From Thalassospira sp. (GTDB lineage Bacteria > Pseudomonadota > Alphaproteobacteria > Rhodospirillales > Thalassospiraceae): a stretch of 64,000 nt of DNA. The notes beneath the pieces were generated by a model that saw only the letters and a list, made by a program, of their open reading frames with translations, was not told the DNA's origin and made no database searches. This document shows, one piece after another, positions 57,342 through 64,000 of this stretch. Numbering within the stretch: the first letter of the stretch is position 1; each line of letters starts with the position of its first letter. The stretch covers positions 1-64,000 of the forward strand of contig NZ_PAQR01000022.1 in assembly GCF_002709775.1 (NCBI RefSeq). Reading direction: 5' to 3'. A program made the position numbers and the translations under genes.

Positions 57342-58319
57342 ATGAAAAAACTTATTGCTGTAGCGGGTGCAGTCGCTGCAATTGCTGGCGCCTCGCTGTT
57401 TGCCGGTCAGGCCTCGGCACAGGAAAACCGTTTCATCACCATCGGTACCGGTGGTGTGACCGGTGTGTACTATCCGACGGGTGGCGCTATCTGCCGTCTG
57501 GTCAACAAGGATCGCAAAGAGCACGGAATTCGTTGCTCGGTCGAATCCACTGGTGGTTCGGTCTACAACATCAACACCATTCGTACCGGCGAGCTGGACA
57601 TGGGTGTTGCCCAGTCTGACTGGCAGTACCATGCCTATAACGGTACTTCGAAATTCGAAGACCAGGGTCCGTTCGAAGACCTGCGCGCTGTGTTCTCCGT
57701 CCATCCGGAGCCGTTCACCGTTGTTGCCCGTGCAGATGCAGGCATCAAGACCTTTGACGACCTCAAAGGCAAGCGCGTGAACATCGGTAACCCGGGTTCC
57801 GGTCAGCGCGGCACGATGGACATCGTTCTGGCTGCCAAAGGCTGGACGCTGGACGACTTCTCGCTGGCATCCGAACTGAAGCCGGCTGAACAGTCCCAGG
57901 CGCTTTGCGACAACAAGATCGACGCGATGATCTACACCGTTGGTCACCCGTCCGGTTCGATCCAGGAAGCAACCACTGCCTGTGATTCGGTTCTGGTTGA
58001 AGTTGCCGGTCCGGCAATCGACAAGCTGATCGCTGACAACCCGTACTACCGTGCAGCCACCATTCCGGGCGGCATGTATCGTGGTAACCCGGATGACGTT
58101 GTCACCTTCGGCGTTGGCGCGACCTTCGTGTCCTCAACTAACACCGATGCGGACGTTGTCTACAACGTTGTCAAAGCAGTCTTTGAAAACTTCGATGATT
58201 TCAAAAAACTGCACCCGGCATTCGCTGTCCTGAAGAAAGAAGAAATGATCAAGGACGGTCTGTCGGCCCCGCTGCATGATGGTGCAGCCAAGTACTACAA
58301 AGAAGCAGGCCTGATGTAA
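57342..58319 (+). CDS. TRAP transporter receptor, TAXI family
   Basis: Periplasmic receptor of 325 residues with a signal peptide (cleavage after A-S-A, about residue 26). The TAXI (TRAP-associated extracytoplasmic immunogenic) marks follow: [26 protein letters not shown] (only the family block at about 31-56), [43 protein letters not shown] and the [13 protein letters not shown] segment. Ligands known for TAXI proteins include glutamate-like acids. Here the enzymes next door suggest an amino or keto acid. A strong hairpin (58331) after it sets it apart from the permease mRNA. Confidence 0.93.
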
Positions 58320-58330
58320 TCAGCCTTGGG

Positions 58331-58360
58331 ACGGAGGGCGTTTATCGCCCTCCGTTTTTC
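58331..58360 (+). terminator. Terminator/attenuator between receptor and permease genes
   Basis: ACGGAGGGCG / CGCCCTCCGT, 10-bp perfect stem, 5-nt loop, T-run of five. Incomplete termination here would give more receptor than permease. Confidence 0.88.
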
Positions 58361-58517
58361 TTTTGCGCCCGACGGGTTTGCTCACAAAAATTGAATAAAC
58401 ATAACGCCGTAACTTAGGTGTTGGAGTACTCCGTAGGGGACCGGGTGTGTGTCGACGGAGGCTTTTTGTTTCTGGACCACCAGTTCAATTGGCTTTCGTA
58501 GTGACCGGGAGTTTGTG

Positions 58518-61121
58518 ATGACTGACGATCAAAAAACGGAAAATCCGTCCGTTGATCAGGGGCTGCAGGACCTGATTGCGGAAAATGATACAGGGGCCCG
58601 TCAGCCAAGCGGTTTGACGGCGAAAATATTACTTTGGCTTGCGGTTTCATGGTCGCTGTTCCAGCTTTGGCTGGCTTCACCATTGCCATTTATCTTTAAT
58701 TTTGGCGTTTTGAACTCGACCGAAGCACGGTCGATCCATCTCGCTTTTGCAATTTTCCTGGCCTTCATGGCCTATCCGGCCTTCAAGAATTCACCGCGCA
58801 GCTATATCCCGATCCTTGATTGGGTGCTGGCTTTGATCGGTGCGTTCTGTGCGGCCTATATTTACATTTTCTATCGCGACCTCTCGGACCGTCCGGGCCT
58901 GCCGATTACGGCTGATCTGGTTGCGGCTGGTGTTGGCCTTGTCATGTTGCTTGAAGCAACCCGTCGCGCCCTTGGCCCGCCTTTGATGGTCGTTGCCATG
59001 GTCTTCCTGGCTTATGTCTTCTTTGGCAATGCGGCCTGGGTGCCGGATGTTTTGCAGTGGAGTGGCGCAAGCTTCTCCAAGGCGATGTCGCATCAATGGA
59101 TCACCACTGAGGGCGTGTTTGGGATCGCGCTTGGCGTGTCGACCAGCTTTGTGTTCCTGTTTGTTCTGTTTGGCTCGCTTCTCGATAAGGCCGGTGCAGG
59201 CAACTATTTCATCAAGGTGGCGTTCGCGGCCCTTGGTCACATGCGTGGTGGCCCGGCAAAGGCAGCGGTTTTGTCATCGGCGATGACCGGTCTTATTTCC
59301 GGCTCCTCGATTGCCAACGTTGTGACGACCGGTACCTTTACCATTCCGCTGATGAAGCGTGTTGGCTTCCCGGGTGAAAAGGCCGGGGCGGTCGAAGTGG
59401 CGTCTTCGGTCAACGGTCAGATCATGCCGCCGGTCATGGGGGCTGCGGCCTTCCTCATGGTGGAATATGTCGGCATTCCGTACCCCGAAGTCATCAAGCA
59501 TGCCTTCCTGCCAGCAACGATTTCCTATATCGCGCTGATCTATATTGTTCACCTTGAAGCGCTTAAGGCGAACATGCAGGGCCTGCCGAAACGGGTGACC
59601 TCGACCTTGGGGCAGACCCTGATCAGATCGCTTCTGTTCGTGCTGTCGCTCGTGGTTCTTTCCGGCGTCGTCTATTACGCGATCGTCTTCCAGAAGGGGC
59701 TGTTTGGTGACGTGGTCGGTTGGGTTGTTGCTGCTGAATGTGCGGTGATTTATCTGGCCGGTCTTTATTACGCCGCCAAATATCCTGACCTTGAAATGGA
59801 TGATCCCAACCAGCCGGTTGTTGAACTGCCGGCACTGGGTGAAACCGCCAAGGCAGGTTTGCATTATCTGCTGCCGGTCGTGGTTCTGGTCTGGTTCCTG
59901 ATGATTGAGCTGAAATCACCGGGTCTGTCAGCTTTCTGGGCGACGGTTCTGATGATCTTCATCATGCTGACCCAGCACGCCGCCAAGGGCTTCTTCCGCA
60001 AGAAACCCGATTTCGCGAATGACCTGAAACTTGGTGTCATCGACGTCATTGACGGGTTTGCTACGGGGGCGCGTAACATGATCGGTATCGGTGTTGCCAC
60101 TGCGGCTGCCGGTATTATCGTGGGCACGGTTTCACTGACCGGTATCGGTCAGGTGATGGTTGAATTCGTCGAGTTGATTTCGGGCGGCAATCTGATGCTG
60201 ATCCTGATCTTTACCGCCGTGATCAGCCTGATCCTTGGCATGGGGCTTCCGACCACGGCGAACTACATTGTGGTATCGAGCCTGATGGCGCCGGTGATCG
60301 TGGAACTCGGTGCTGCAAACGGCCTGATCGTGCCGTTGATTGCGGTTCACCTGTTCGTCTTCTATTTCGGCATCATGGCCGATGTGACCCCTCCGGTTGG
60401 TCTGGCATCCTTTGCCGCGGCGGCTGTGTCGGGGTCTGATCCGATGAAGACCGGGGTTGTTGCGTTCCTCTATTCGATGCGTACCGCGGTCTTGCCGTTC
60501 CTGTTCCTGTTCAACACCCAGCTTCTGATGATCGGTCTGGATCATCCGGTTGATGTGGTTGTTGTGGTGGTGGTTTCGACAATCGCTATGCTGGTCTTCG
60601 CTGCAGCGACGCAGGGGTACTTCTTTGCCCGGTCCAAGCTGTGGGAAAGTGCGGCATTGCTGTTGATCGCCTTCACCCTGTTCCGTCCGGGTTTCTGGCT
60701 CGACATGATTGCGCCGCCTTATGAAAACCTGCCGGCGACAACCATTGTCGAAGACGCTGCCAACATGCCGCCTGAATCCAGCATCCTTTTGGATGTCGAA
60801 GGGATCAGCATCGAAGGCGATGAAGTATCCAAATCCGTTATGCTGCCACTTGGGCCAGCAGGATCAGGTGAGGATCGCCTGTATCATGCCGGTATCGGCA
60901 TTCGTGATGAAGATGGTCGTATCTATATCGATGATCTGGTCTTTGCCGGTCCGGCCGAAAAAGCCGGTCTTGATTTCGACTTTGAAATCACTGCGGTCAA
61001 GATCGAAGCTGATCGTCCGGCCAAGGAAGTCTTCTTTATTCCGGCCTTCCTGTTGCTGGGCGGGATCATTGTTCTTCAACGCCGGCGCAAGCGCAGTGAA
61101 GACGCGCTTGGTGCGGCCTGA
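58518..61121 (+). CDS. Fused TRAP permease (4TM-12TM) with C-terminal DUF3394 domain
   Basis: An 867-residue inner-membrane permease in which DctQ (about residues 35-185) and DctM (about 195-680) parts are fused, as usual for TAXI systems. MTGLISGSSIANVVTTGTF and GMGLPTTANYIVVSSLMAP are the family sites. After about residue 720 comes a soluble PDZ-like DUF3394 tail (LDVEGISIEGDEV, DDLVFAGPAEKAGLDFDFEITAV) and a final membrane helix (IPAFLLLGGIIVLQRRRK). ATG at 58518 has GGGAG upstream. The universal stress protein gene follows 14 bases later. Confidence 0.92.
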   Translation: MTDDQKTENPSVDQGLQDLIAENDTGARQPSGLTAKILLWLAVSWSLFQLWLASPLPFIFNFGVLNSTEARSIHLAFAIFLAFMAYPAFKNSPRSYIPILDWVLALIGAFCAAYIYIFYRDLSDRPGLPITADLVAAGVGLVMLLEATRRALGPPLMVVAMVFLAYVFFGNAAWVPDVLQWSGASFSKAMSHQWITTEGVFGIALGVSTSFVFLFVLFGSLLDKAGAGNYFIKVAFAALGHMRGGPAKAAVLSSAMTGLISGSSIANVVTTGTFTIPLMKRVGFPGEKAGAVEVASSVNGQIMPPVMGAAAFLMVEYVGIPYPEVIKHAFLPATISYIALIYIVHLEALKANMQGLPKRVTSTLGQTLIRSLLFVLSLVVLSGVVYYAIVFQKGLFGDVVGWVVAAECAVIYLAGLYYAAKYPDLEMDDPNQPVVELPALGETAKAGLHYLLPVVVLVWFLMIELKSPGLSAFWATVLMIFIMLTQHAAKGFFRKKPDFANDLKLGVIDVIDGFATGARNMIGIGVATAAAGIIVGTVSLTGIGQVMVEFVELISGGNLMLILIFTAVISLILGMGLPTTANYIVVSSLMAPVIVELGAANGLIVPLIAVHLFVFYFGIMADVTPPVGLASFAAAAVSGSDPMKTGVVAFLYSMRTAVLPFLFLFNTQLLMIGLDHPVDVVVVVVVSTIAMLVFAAATQGYFFARSKLWESAALLLIAFTLFRPGFWLDMIAPPYENLPATTIVEDAANMPPESSILLDVEGISIEGDEVSKSVMLPLGPAGSGEDRLYHAGIGIRDEDGRIYIDDLVFAGPAEKAGLDFDFEITAVKIEADRPAKEVFFIPAFLLLGGIIVLQRRRKRSEDALGAA

Positions 61122-61135
61122 CAGGGAGAGTGAAC

Positions 61136-61564
61136 ATGTACAAGGATATTCTGGTCACAGTAGATCTTGATCATGAGTCTTCCTGGAAAAAGGCCGTGCC
61201 GGTCGCCATCAAGCAGGCGCAAAGCTTTGGCGCGCGCCTTCATGTTCTGACAGTGGTACCCACGGTCGGAATGTCGATGGTCGGTCAGTTCTTCCCGAAG
61301 GGCTACGAAACCAAGGTTCTTGATGCCTATAACGAACGTCTGCACCAGTTTGTGTCTGAACACATTCCTTCAGACATCAAGGTTCAGCACATCGTTGGTC
61401 AGGGAACGGTTTACGAGGTCATCTTGCAGATGGCCAAGAAAACCAGTTGCGACCTGATCGTGATCGGATCGCATCGCCCGGAACTCAAAGACTATCTTTT
61501 GGGCCCGAACGCGGCGCGCGTTGTCCGCCATGCGGATTGCTCGGTCATGGTCGTTCGCGACTAG
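61136..61564 (+). CDS. Universal stress protein (UspA family), probable TRAP regulator
   Basis: A 142-residue UspA-fold protein. The ATP-binding pattern G-2x-G-9x-G-(S/T) is partly visible as VIGSHRPELKDYLLGPNAARVVRHADCSVMVVRD at the C-terminus (residues about 108-141). In Halomonas the UspA-like TeaD, encoded with the TeaABC ectoine TRAP transporter, lowers transport activity, so a similar role is likely for this last gene of the operon. GGGAG lies seven bases before the ATG; a GTG six bases upstream was rejected because it overlaps the ribosome site. Confidence 0.88.
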   Translation: MYKDILVTVDLDHESSWKKAVPVAIKQAQSFGARLHVLTVVPTVGMSMVGQFFPKGYETKVLDAYNERLHQFVSEHIPSDIKVQHIVGQGTVYEVILQMAKKTSCDLIVIGSHRPELKDYLLGPNAARVVRHADCSVMVVRD

Positions 61565-61593
61565 ATCGTCAGGCAATTCAAAGATAAAGAAAA

Positions 61594-61623
61594 ACGGGGG
61601 CGATGTGAATGCATCGCCCCCGT
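61594..61623 (-). terminator. Terminator between convergent usp and Cys-rich genes
   Basis: ACGGGGGCGATG / CATCGCCCCCGT, 12-bp perfect stem. On the minus strand it is followed by TTTTCTTTATC, so it best serves the Cys-rich peptide gene. Confidence 0.9.
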
Positions 61624-61646
61624 TGCTGTTGGAACAGATCAAATGA

Positions 61647-61985
61647 TCAGTTTGCTGCGCACGGGTTCGCAGCGCACGGATTGGCAGCACACGGGTTGGC
61701 TGCTGCACACGGGTTTGCCGCACAGGGGTTCGCAGCACACGGGCTGCAGGGGTTAACGACTTTCTTGGCAGCACACGGGTTGGCAGCGCATGGGTTTGCT
61801 GCACAGGGATTAGCCGCGCACGGGTTGGCTGCACAAGGGCTGCATGGCGCACAGCTTGCGACCTCAGCAGTCGGTGCCGGCAGCGGGGCTGCCATCGCCA
61901 TCGGGGTTGCCATGGCAAGGGTGGTGCCGATCGCCATTGCCGGGATCAGTGCCTTATGTGCGAAAGTCTTGGATTTCTTGGTCAT
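61647..61985 (-). CDS. Secreted Cys-rich peptide with Asn-Pro-Cys-Ala-Ala repeats
   Basis: A 112-residue protein: signal peptide (residues 1 to about 32, cleavage after A-M-A), a short Pro/Ala linker, then about 70 residues made almost wholly of the pentapeptide N-P-C-A-A. I count 14 cysteines, 11 spaced by exactly five or six residues and three as C-x2-C (CAPCSPC and CSPC). An interruption AAKKVVNPC splits the array into two blocks. Synonymous codons vary among repeats, so the peptide, not the DNA, is being kept. Possible roles are metal binding, disulfide-linked surface material or a modified peptide. GAGAGG lies 6 bases before the ATG; a 25-residue upstream extension was rejected. I know no named family for it. 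Confidence 0.8.
   Translation of the reverse strand: MTKKSKTFAHKALIPAMAIGTTLAMATPMAMAAPLPAPTAEVASCAPCSPCAANPCAANPCAANPCAANPCAAKKVVNPCSPCAANPCAANPCAAANPCAANPCAANPCAAN
61650..61853 (-). repeat. Coding 15-bp repeat array (Cys-rich peptide)
   Basis: About a dozen imperfect 15-bp units encoding N-P-C-A-A, one with an extra Ala codon. Third positions drift, which argues for old repeats under selection. Confidence 0.85.
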
Positions 61986-62310
61986 TAGTGCCTCTCTGGA
62001 TGTCCGGTAAGTTTCAGCCGGGGCGTTCTGTCGCCCGTCGGTGAAGGCACTATGGTCCAAATTTTCATCGCTGCGGCGTCACATGGTTTCACTGTTATGT
62101 GAGCCCTGCGTGTTCAAAAAGTTGTTTGCGTACAGTTAATTAGAAGACTGTTTCACAAAAAAGATGTGATAAATTCGTGCCGGAAACCGTCAAACCGATT
62201 GAAAGTGTGGCGAAATTTCCGCATCTTGTGGATAGGGAACAAGGGGGCAGGATATGTTGTGGCGCTTGAATAAAGCGTGAGCCACGCTGCCCATCAGGAC
62301 GGAAGTTTGT
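61986..62310. other. 325-bp divergent intergenic region with palindrome
   Basis: No gene is seen. It holds the promoters of the divergent Cys-rich and SUMF1-like genes. TCACAT (62079-62084) and ATGTGA (62097-62102), 12 bases apart, form an inverted repeat suited to a dimeric regulator. Confidence 0.45.
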
Positions 62311-63183
62311 ATGAGAGTCGGGGACTGTATCGCAGATATCTGGAAATTCTGCGCTGTTGGATGCCTTTTGGCCGTTGCGGGAGTCTCCCACGCACAGGCT
62401 GCAGGCGATGGAATCCCCGATGTGGTGCGCATTCCGTCTGGCTGGTTCTGGCAGGGGTCCGATTCTGTCGAACGGCAATATGCTTATCAGATTGACGAGC
62501 AGGTCTATGGCCACGATATCAGTCGCCGTAATCGTTGGTACGATCTCGAAACCGATAAGTGGCACGTCCACCTTCTGGCCTATGATATCGCCAAGACACC
62601 GGTGACCAATGACCAATACGCTGTTTTCGTCAACGCAACCGGTCACCCGGCACCTGATATCAGTCAGGAAGACTGGGAACGTCAGGGCCTGATTTATACC
62701 TATGACACCATTATACCGTTCCTTTGGAAAAATGGTCGCCCACCCCGTGGGCGCGGCCGCCACCCGGTTGTGCTGGTATCCTGGCAGGATGCCAATGCCT
62801 ATGCCCAGTGGTTGAGTGAAAAGACCGGTGAGACGTGGCACCTGCCCGATGAACTTTATTGGGAAAAGGCGATACGCGGACCGGACGGCACATTCTATCC
62901 GTGGGGCAATATTTTTGACGCCGGTCGGTTGAACAGTGCCGATAACGGCCCGTTTGATACCATGCCGGTTGGCCGGTTCGAGCCGGGACCCTATGGCGTG
63001 CTTGACGGTGCGGGTCAGGTGTTTGAATGGACGTCGACGTCTTCCCAGCCGGGCTATCGCATCGTTAAAGGTGGATCATGGGATGATCGCGGGTGCGGGG
63101 TCTGTCGGCCAGCTGCCCGTCACGGGCGTCCGGAATATCTCAAACATATCCTGATCGGCTTTCGGGTGATGCGCGATCGCTGA
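62311..63183 (+). CDS. Periplasmic SUMF1/formylglycine-generating-enzyme-like protein
   Basis: A 290-residue protein with a signal peptide (cleavage after about A-Q-A, residue 30) followed by an FGE-sulfatase (SUMF1, PF03781) domain. Visible blocks are RIPSGWFWQGSD (about 40-51), DIAKTPVTNDQYAVFV, HPVVLVSWQDANAYAQWLS, WHLPDELYWEKAIRG, FYPWGN, GAGQVFEWTST and KGGSWDDRG at about 253-261. A C-x2-C pair (C262, C265) sits where formylglycine-generating enzymes carry copper-binding cysteines, but the spacing differs (five residues there), so the classical oxidase activity is uncertain. No sulfatase gene is adjacent. The divergent neighbour is the 14-Cys peptide, a conceivable substrate. Confidence 0.85.
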   Translation: MRVGDCIADIWKFCAVGCLLAVAGVSHAQAAGDGIPDVVRIPSGWFWQGSDSVERQYAYQIDEQVYGHDISRRNRWYDLETDKWHVHLLAYDIAKTPVTNDQYAVFVNATGHPAPDISQEDWERQGLIYTYDTIIPFLWKNGRPPRGRGRHPVVLVSWQDANAYAQWLSEKTGETWHLPDELYWEKAIRGPDGTFYPWGNIFDAGRLNSADNGPFDTMPVGRFEPGPYGVLDGAGQVFEWTSTSSQPGYRIVKGGSWDDRGCGVCRPAARHGRPEYLKHILIGFRVMRDR

Positions 63184-63317
63184 GCTGTTGCGAAGATTGT
63201 TGCAAAGCGCCTTGAAATCACTAACTGTTGAAAGGGGTTTATTGGCGCGATCGGTCGCAAACCATCCATTCTGCTCAGACGGAATAACGGGTGGATCGCA
63301 ACGATGTTGGTAAAGAT

Positions 63318-64000
63318 ATGACTGAAGATACACTTGATTTGGCGTCGATCCCGACAGATCATCTTGAAAAGATGTTGGCTGCGGGGCGTGACGTTATGGA
63401 ATGTCACCGCGTCCTGACGGCGACCGGCGATAACATCGTTGGTGAACTGATCAAAAGTGCGGGGACATTCTATGAATGGAACCATTACCCCGAAGGCGAT
63501 GTCTATGATCGTCAGTCACATGCGCAGTTCTATTATCATGCCCATCCCAAGGAAGAACGTCGCGATTGGGATGAGCACGGGCATTTTCACACCTTCATGC
63601 GCCCGCGTGGCATGCCGGATGGATGCAAGCCCAAACAGATTGATGGTTTTGACTATCCCGAAGGCCCCAATGATGCGCTGTCGCACCTGATTGCGTTTTC
63701 GATGGATGAGTTCGGATTTTGTCAGCGCCTGTTTACCACCAACCGCTGGGTTACCGGCGAAGTCTGGTACGACGCGGAAGATGTCATTGCCATGCTTGAC
63801 GGGTTTGTCATCGACCATGCGCAGCCATCCTGGCCGGTTAATCGCTGGGTATCTGGTATGATGATCCTGTTCCGCCCGCAAATCGAAAAGCTGATCCGGG
63901 AACGTGATCAGGCGGTTGCCGAATGGGCGAACAAACATCCTGACCGTGATGTCTATGAAGACCGCGAGCTTGAAGTTACCTCGACACTGGATGTCGCGAG
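63318..64000 (+). CDS. His-rich protein of uncharacterised family (DUF6969-like), C-terminus outside the window
   Basis: I translated 227 codons from the ATG at 63318 to the window edge without a stop. The middle is rich in His and aromatic residues: YEWNHYPEGDVYDRQSHAQF, FYYHAHPKEERRDW, DEHGHFHTFMRP (about 52-100), then FTTNRWVTGEVWYDAEDV and a helical C-terminal part. The pattern of closely spaced His, Asp and Glu suggests metal binding. From memory the family resembles DUF6969; that name is not verified. It lies 134 bases after the SUMF1-like gene on the same strand. No signal peptide is seen. Confidence 0.72.
   Translation, partial: MTEDTLDLASIPTDHLEKMLAAGRDVMECHRVLTATGDNIVGELIKSAGTFYEWNHYPEGDVYDRQSHAQFYYHAHPKEERRDWDEHGHFHTFMRPRGMPDGCKPKQIDGFDYPEGPNDALSHLIAFSMDEFGFCQRLFTTNRWVTGEVWYDAEDVIAMLDGFVIDHAQPSWPVNRWVSGMMILFRPQIEKLIRERDQAVAEWANKHPDRDVYEDRELEVTSTLDVA

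Follow-up and report, generated by a model that had tools for sequence, protein, structure and literature searches.

A probable and apparently undescribed system linking secreted cysteine arrays, a CxxC-type SUMF1 protein and DUF6969 in Thalassospira and other Pseudomonadota

Close to its end, a 64,000-nucleotide stretch of a 4.24-Mb draft genome of Thalassospira sp., a marine alphaproteobacterium (GCF_002709775.1, contig NZ_PAQR01000022.1, positions 1 to 64,000; hereafter, the window), carries three genes that very probably belong to one system. They encode a secreted Cys-repeat peptide, a relative of the Cys-oxidising formylglycine-generating enzyme (FGE, SUMF1) with a C-x2-C pair, and a His-rich protein of the family DUF6969. 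As judged from sequence, array genes, DUF6969 and SUMF1 genes of this CxxC type cluster in the sampled genomes much more strongly than chance would allow, and the conserved system that they appear to form around secreted Cys-array proteins (with NPCAA(K/N) and CNPC repeats) is apparently undescribed. An earlier note, based on the letters of the window, had listed the peptide, the SUMF1-like gene and the His-rich gene, all of which we found, and had named their co-occurrence across genomes beforehand as a check to be made; the genes do co-occur, as detailed below.

The three genes of the window

The peptide gene lies on the reverse strand (61647..61985) and encodes 112 residues with a signal-like N-terminus and 14 Cys, arranged in NPCAA(N/K), CSPC and CAPC units. 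The true start is likely the ATG at 61985; the upstream extension offered by a longer open reading frame (ORF; 61647-62060, same strand) is doubtful. No Pfam or NCBIfam model matched the peptide, and by the array pattern it is the sole Cys array in the 64-kb window. A protein-level search of the genome with the peptide as query returned nine rows in all: apart from the peptide, a single contig of 1.8 kb gave a strong match (E 2.3e-19), the remaining rows being weak or further pieces of that second match. The genome's second repeat ORF, of the NPC(A/G)A kind and 230 aa long, is at positions 2-691 of the short contig C66 (L084, 1843 bases); the ORF that comes after it has, to our eye, an HNH-endonuclease-like look.

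Divergent from the peptide gene, positions 62311..63183 of the forward strand encode a probably exported protein with the SUMF1/FGE fold, belonging to the CxxC type (290 aa, C262-x2-C265). Pfam places it in PF03781 (E 1.1e-39), and the nearest relative fetched, from Thalassospira sp. HJ, is 98% identical. The third gene follows on the strand of SUMF1, 134 bp downstream, occupying 63318..64000 of the window and ending at contig position 64058. Its product, His-rich and without a signal-like N-terminus, is a clear member of DUF6969 (PF22308; E 1.9e-88, 295.8 bits against a gathering score of 27). The earlier note had the genes share one regulatory region or lie in sequence; a shared region applies to the divergent peptide and SUMF1 pair, with DUF6969 lying beyond the SUMF1 gene.

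Co-occurrence across genomes

Relatives of the SUMF1 gene were collected by scanning bacterial and archaeal genomes with six peptide patterns, one of which was VKGGSWDD and none of which contained GCGxC. The best 80 of 324 relatives were kept (L003-L082): 20 Thalassospira-type loci (L003-L022) and 60 non-Thalassospira loci. Neighbour families were clustered from the predictions of a codon-position gene caller. A Cys-repeat ORF was required to have at least four [NSGKHTDA]PC within 80 residues, and the P460-like domain, a frequent companion of the arrays, was counted with a profile built in this analysis. Draft genomes may be incomplete or interrupted at repeats; because several contigs stop inside a repeat (e.g., L045, L058, L059 and L082), the array counts are lower bounds.

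DUF6969 was present near SUMF1 in 57/80 loci (20/20 Thalassospira-type, 37/60 others), and a Cys-repeat ORF was also present in 57/80 (17/20 and 40/60, respectively). A P460-like domain accompanied SUMF1 in 25/80 loci. At least one partner of any kind was found in 67/80, and DUF6969 plus an array or a P460 domain in 49/80, including 32 of the 60 loci outside Thalassospira. The Cys arrays are not chance products of the pattern, because block-shuffled loci yielded a Cys-repeat ORF in 0/119 cases.

A less biased sample came from drawing 289 genomes evenly across the class (the even draw), with the SUMF1 type taken at E ≤1e-40. SUMF1 occurred in 20 of these genomes and DUF6969 in 62, with both side by side in 18 (hypergeometric p 1.4e-11 for SUMF1 and DUF6969 over the 289 genomes, kinship not corrected). 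Among the 20 SUMF1 loci, DUF6969 was found at 18, a Cys repeat at 14 (in the fetched flanks), a P460 domain at 10 and any partner at 19. Eight of these loci represent the same genes as in the set of 80, so that the two samples are not independent. As controls we used 40 SUMF1 loci outside the clade but from the same class, hand-picked from the PF03781 list with their neighbours unseen; each partner was found in 0/40 of them, with 10/40 coming from genomes in which a clade member is present as well and some stretches, here and elsewhere, being short. From the co-occurrence of the three genes both in the 80 loci and in the even draw, as against 0/40 in the controls, we conclude that they are very probably parts of a single system.

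DUF6969 is on the SUMF1 strand in 55/57 loci (median ORF gap 77 b). In 42/59 loci the ORF for an array or P460 domain that is closest to SUMF1 lies upstream of it and points the other way (median gap 154 b), the gaps being rough because longest-ORF starts were used. The placement of the array varies (divergent, upstream, downstream or fused), while the partners persist. Furthermore, at 13 SUMF1 loci without nearby partners, DUF6969 was found elsewhere in 11/13 genomes; 8 of the same 13 genomes contained an array, each at most 2 kb from DUF6969. The class draw also included 44 genomes with DUF6969 and without SUMF1, 42 of which were searched: 14 had an array, at ≤2 kb from DUF6969 in 10 of those, and DUF6969-negative genomes gave an array in 0/36 cases, with the query that had detected arrays in the two preceding sets. 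Arrays thus tend to stay close to DUF6969, also in genomes that lack SUMF1 or have it at another place.

A number of exceptions weigh against a single system. No array match was obtained in 28/42 genomes with DUF6969 and without SUMF1, and no array was found by pattern in 24/39 DUF6969-only loci, so that DUF6969 may have other roles as well. In an even draw from the whole phylum (299 genomes), 9 of the 11 DUF6969 genomes gave no SUMF1 match at E 1e-60. Conversely, DUF6969 was not nearby in 10/59 SUMF1 loci bearing an array or a P460 domain (the search here covering the loci themselves), and 2/13 of the genomes with a partnerless SUMF1 gave no DUF6969 match. Single cases include the even-draw genome G124 (locus L188), having SUMF1, an array and P460 but no DUF6969 match; G040 (L130), in which a divergent CxxC SUMF1 has no nearby partner and DUF6969 gave no match; and L019, L021 and L022, with SUMF1 and DUF6969 and no array nearby.

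The cysteine arrays and their fusion to haem domains

The 91 array ORFs collected comprise 2079 Cys, most commonly in the contexts NPCAAK, NPCNPC and NPCAAN. The commonest distance between neighbouring Cys is three residues (1018 pairs), and the repeat units displayed consist nearly exclusively of N, P, C, A, K, G and S. None of the arrays tested reached the cut-off of any NCBIfam model, and the array parts reached that of no Pfam model.

Many arrays form the N-terminal part of a protein whose C-terminal domain is a cytochrome P460 (PF16694). When ten P460-like proteins were compared with Pfam, eight passed the cut-off, one of which (L096, 3749-4384) is without an array; the protein of L188 fell below it (25.5 bits) and that of L032 gave no match. 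The CxxCH haem motif is present in 36/42 P460-like rows. The window peptide itself is without a P460 domain, and in two gammaproteobacterial loci (L037 and L081) the arrays surround a c-type cytochrome domain in place of P460. What sets these proteins apart from cytochrome P460 as such is the junction to long Cys arrays, a fusion of which we found no report in the open-licence PubMed Central literature. In another ORF of L096 (215-1162), a Cys array both precedes the P460-like domain and is inserted within it.

Bufferins, which go with MNIO (DUF692) enzymes, offer a parallel, in that they too are secreted Cys-rich peptides with dedicated partners. The present arrays differ in that those tested match no Pfam or NCBIfam model above cut-off and in having DUF6969 and SUMF1 as recurrent partners (no DUF692 search was made). 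Rare fusions of Buf1, cytochrome c and FGE-sulfatase are on record (PMC12452194). This was the sole article judged related, and no description of the system was found in open-licence PubMed Central; the same holds for reports on NPCAAK, on DUF6969 and on cytochrome P460 together with SUMF1 or with cysteine repeats.

A SUMF1 clade with rearranged cysteines

In a quick tree, from which 7 rows of Thalassospira and a single short control row were omitted, the SUMF1 proteins of the system form one well-separated group of 74 rows (Shimodaira-Hasegawa-like approximate likelihood ratio test, 99; stem 1.26). The AlphaFold2 model of the window's protein (predicted local distance difference test, pLDDT, 87; predicted template modelling score, pTM, 0.84) was compared with known structures through VIA-align. 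The leading rows were tied: PvdO (Z 25.6), CalU17 (25.2) and ToxD (25.1), all SUMF1-fold proteins from biosynthetic pathways, together with human and bacterial FGEs (23.4-24.8). ToxD and CalU17 were also at the top by Foldseek. Despite the similarity in fold, the NCBIfam PvdO model, whose cut-off is 500 bits, gives 53.6. A relationship to the sulfoxide synthases was considered and rejected, the models for EgtB, SenA and OvoA scoring 60, 50.2 and 31.4 bits with cut-offs of 360, 420 and 400, respectively.

Residues C262, C265, D258, D259, R273 and H279 are invariant in 81/81 SUMF1 rows, all of which show the motif GGS-W-D-D-x-G-C-G-x-C; the conservation of the VKGGSWDD stretch is in part selected, as this was one of the scan patterns. 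(For the alignments, redundant rows were removed by hand, leaving 68 of 81 for SUMF1 and 52 of 57 for DUF6969.) The control set, in which 36 of the 40 loci contributed 38 ORFs (a few of them truncated), showed C262 together with C265 in 0/38 rows. Specific to the clade as well are D258, R273 and H279, while D259 occurs also in 7/38 controls, and the FGE form, KGGS-x2-C-x4-C, is present in 8/38. CxxC was present in 19/19 even-draw loci with a readable motif, L188 ending at a contig edge.

We placed these residues on the human FGE sequence, whose spacing agrees with the residue numbers in the literature. Anchoring the alignment on the AAR that follows puts C262 in the place of Cys341, while anchoring on GGS puts Asp259 in the place of Cys336 and makes C265 a new residue. 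The suggestion of the earlier note, that C-x2-C replaces the usual copper cysteines, was hence half right: the Cys336 place is taken by Asp259 and C265 is new, but C262 keeps the place of Cys341.

In FGE, the residues Cys336, Cys341, Ser333, His337 and Tyr340 matter (PMC4505483). The window's protein is like FGE (SUMF1; PF03781) in its fold, in the GGS that includes the Ser333 place, in the Cys at the Cys341 place and in its export-like N-terminus. It is unlike FGE in belonging to a separate clade with Asp259 at the Cys336 place and a new Cys three residues on from C262, and in lacking the two-cysteine motif GGS-x2-C-x4-C; the array cysteines, moreover, rarely stand in the CxPxR context of FGE substrates.

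Export-like, strongly hydrophobic N-termini were seen in 69/70 SUMF1 proteins, in 65/70 arrays and in 1/55 DUF6969 proteins. The test applied was a crude hydropathy measure rather than a signal-peptide predictor, and sequences whose N-terminus was too short did not enter the counts. We infer export for arrays and SUMF1 protein alike, with DUF6969 staying in the cytoplasm.

The phylum draw also revealed a related SUMF1 group (E ≤1e-60) in 13 genomes, of one other family. In 8/8 sequences read, this group has the motif GGSWDDxGGxC, without C262, and for these 8 there was no DUF6969 or array within about 1.5 kb or less on each side; 0/13 of its genomes were among the 11 DUF6969-positive genomes of the draw. 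In this small comparison, in which arrays were sought in the locus flanks, C262 thus seems to go with the array system, G040 being a case of CxxC without partners.

DUF6969

The residues of DUF6969 that are invariant across 52 rows include H56, D61, D64, H74, H76, E86, H89, H91 and H123 (L003 numbering), and the protein may well be a cytosolic metalloprotein. Its structural model is confident (pLDDT 93.4, pTM 0.91). In a Foldseek search of this model against PDB, no match was obtained at E 0.001, and the best VIA-align Z, among the candidates of Foldseek itself, was 3.8; this is an absence of matches, not proof of a new fold. The only PDB hit by sequence was at chance level (E 0.79). For this family, which gave no solved-fold match here, the association described here provides a biological context. 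It does the same for an FGE-fold clade with rearranged cysteines and for a repeat protein outside Pfam and NCBIfam.

Possible functions

We consider the chances evenly balanced that the SUMF1 protein acts on the array cysteines with DUF6969 as its cytosolic partner. The earlier note had raised the idea that the SUMF1-like protein might modify or sense the peptide; the haem-domain fusions and the tendency of arrays to stay with DUF6969 were not part of it. Before the array is exported, its precursor would be bound or processed by DUF6969, which is His-rich and probably metal-dependent. The SUMF1 protein, keeping the second copper Cys as C262 and pairing it with the new C265, would then act in the periplasm on the array thiols, through either oxidative modification or thiol exchange, and the matured array could perform a redox or metal task together with the haem domain. 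More tentative is a specific form of this proposal, namely a post-translational system in which DUF6969, as a cytoplasmic His-rich enzyme of new fold, and the SUMF1 protein, as a periplasmic FGE-derived CxxC enzyme, would convert the array cysteines; these might be redox- or metal-active once modified and work with the P460 or c-type haem of the same chain.

The placement of Asp259 at the position of Cys336 counts against an FGE-like action on the arrays, as does the scarcity of the FGE substrate motif: CxPxR occurs at 4/2079 array Cys, with Pro at +2 for 914. A plain FGE conversion of a sulfatase-type motif is therefore unlikely, CxPxR being nearly absent from the arrays and one active-site Cys replaced.

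The arrays could instead serve as a metal buffer, a possible if somewhat doubtful explanation. Their CxxC-rich repeats would bind a soft metal, for instance Cu(I) or Zn, in the periplasm, much as metallothioneins do, the CxxC protein of the SUMF1 type would be a metal-binding helper rather than an enzyme, and DUF6969 a cytosolic metal-binding partner. The predominant Cys spacing of three and the narrow composition of the units are consistent with this, as are the CxxC and the conserved His of the partner proteins; FGE itself is a copper enzyme (PMC4505483). However, no recurrent neighbour family resembled a metal pump or sensor (most of these families were not searched against Pfam), and the many residues invariant across the SUMF1 domain look more like an active site than like a binder.

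It appears unlikely that the system handles sulfur, with the arrays as periplasmic carriers of sulfane sulfur or of thiol adducts and the haem domains acting as electron acceptors. Pointing in this direction, the SUMF1 gene of a sub-lineage is accompanied by genes for DUF302 and for a membrane protein of the Sulf_transp family (PF04143), these neighbour clusters being found in 6 and 8 of the 60 non-Thalassospira loci, respectively, and their Pfam names deriving from 2 members each; in addition, one array, that of L037, continues into a cytochrome c domain of the SoxA/TsdA type. Nevertheless, such a cluster is not found nearby in the window or in most of the other loci (rhodanese and Sox-type carriers were not searched).

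Lastly, that the genes are neighbours with no shared function is strongly disfavoured and seems to us extremely improbable: the order in Thalassospira does not vary and might reflect inheritance of the whole block, the genes upstream for a TRAP transporter and a universal stress protein being conserved too, but the controls gave 0/40 against 19/20, the arrangement changes while the partners stay, and DUF6969 still has arrays next to it where SUMF1 is at another place.

Should the SUMF1 protein modify the arrays, many modified Cys would be carried on one short repeat, which would be useful for metal chemistry and aldehyde tagging. Should there be no modification, the arrays would represent a haem-linked buffer for metal or sulfur in the periplasm, of a type that is new. 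In both cases, three orphan families are brought into one testable system, found in Alphaproteobacteria and some other Pseudomonadota.

Regulatory signals and neighbouring genes

On the 3' side of the peptide gene, and on the same strand, there is a terminator-like hairpin with a T-run (61593..61624; 13 pairs, 9 of them G-C), which is the longest of 3 terminator-like sites found in the region, where 2.1 were expected. Between the divergent peptide and SUMF1 genes, the inverted repeat TCACAT-N12-ATGTGA (62079..62102) lies in a block kept in 10 aligned Thalassospira-type intergenic regions. With at most 2 open bases, this element was found in 16/17 array-bearing Thalassospira-type loci (it is absent from L020) and in 0/3 array-less ones. 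It is present in a single copy genome-wide, even when up to 3 mismatches are allowed, so that no regulon can be read from it. Sigma-70-like promoters were not above the level of shuffled sequences (2 found, shuffle mean 1.0), and positions 61000-64000 gave no Rfam match at the gathering score.

In the sub-lineage mentioned above (L028, L044, L047, L057, L069, L077, L080 and L104), the SUMF1 or DUF6969 locus contains Sulf_transp (PF04143), DUF302 and/or a protein of about 165 aa. The latter is exported-looking (IELTQTxCQFLE...), and two members tested reached the cut-off of no Pfam family.

Just beyond the window, a small cytochrome c gene adjoins DUF6969 (contig positions 64148-64546, reverse strand); a neighbour family of such genes is represented at 27/80 SUMF1 loci, one member being confirmed as PF00034. 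Upstream of the system, positions 57342-61564 encode a universal stress protein and a TAXI-type tripartite ATP-independent periplasmic (TRAP) transporter, the latter consisting of a binding protein and a fused permease that includes DUF3394. The transporter and the stress protein recur beside the system in Thalassospira and at a few other loci.

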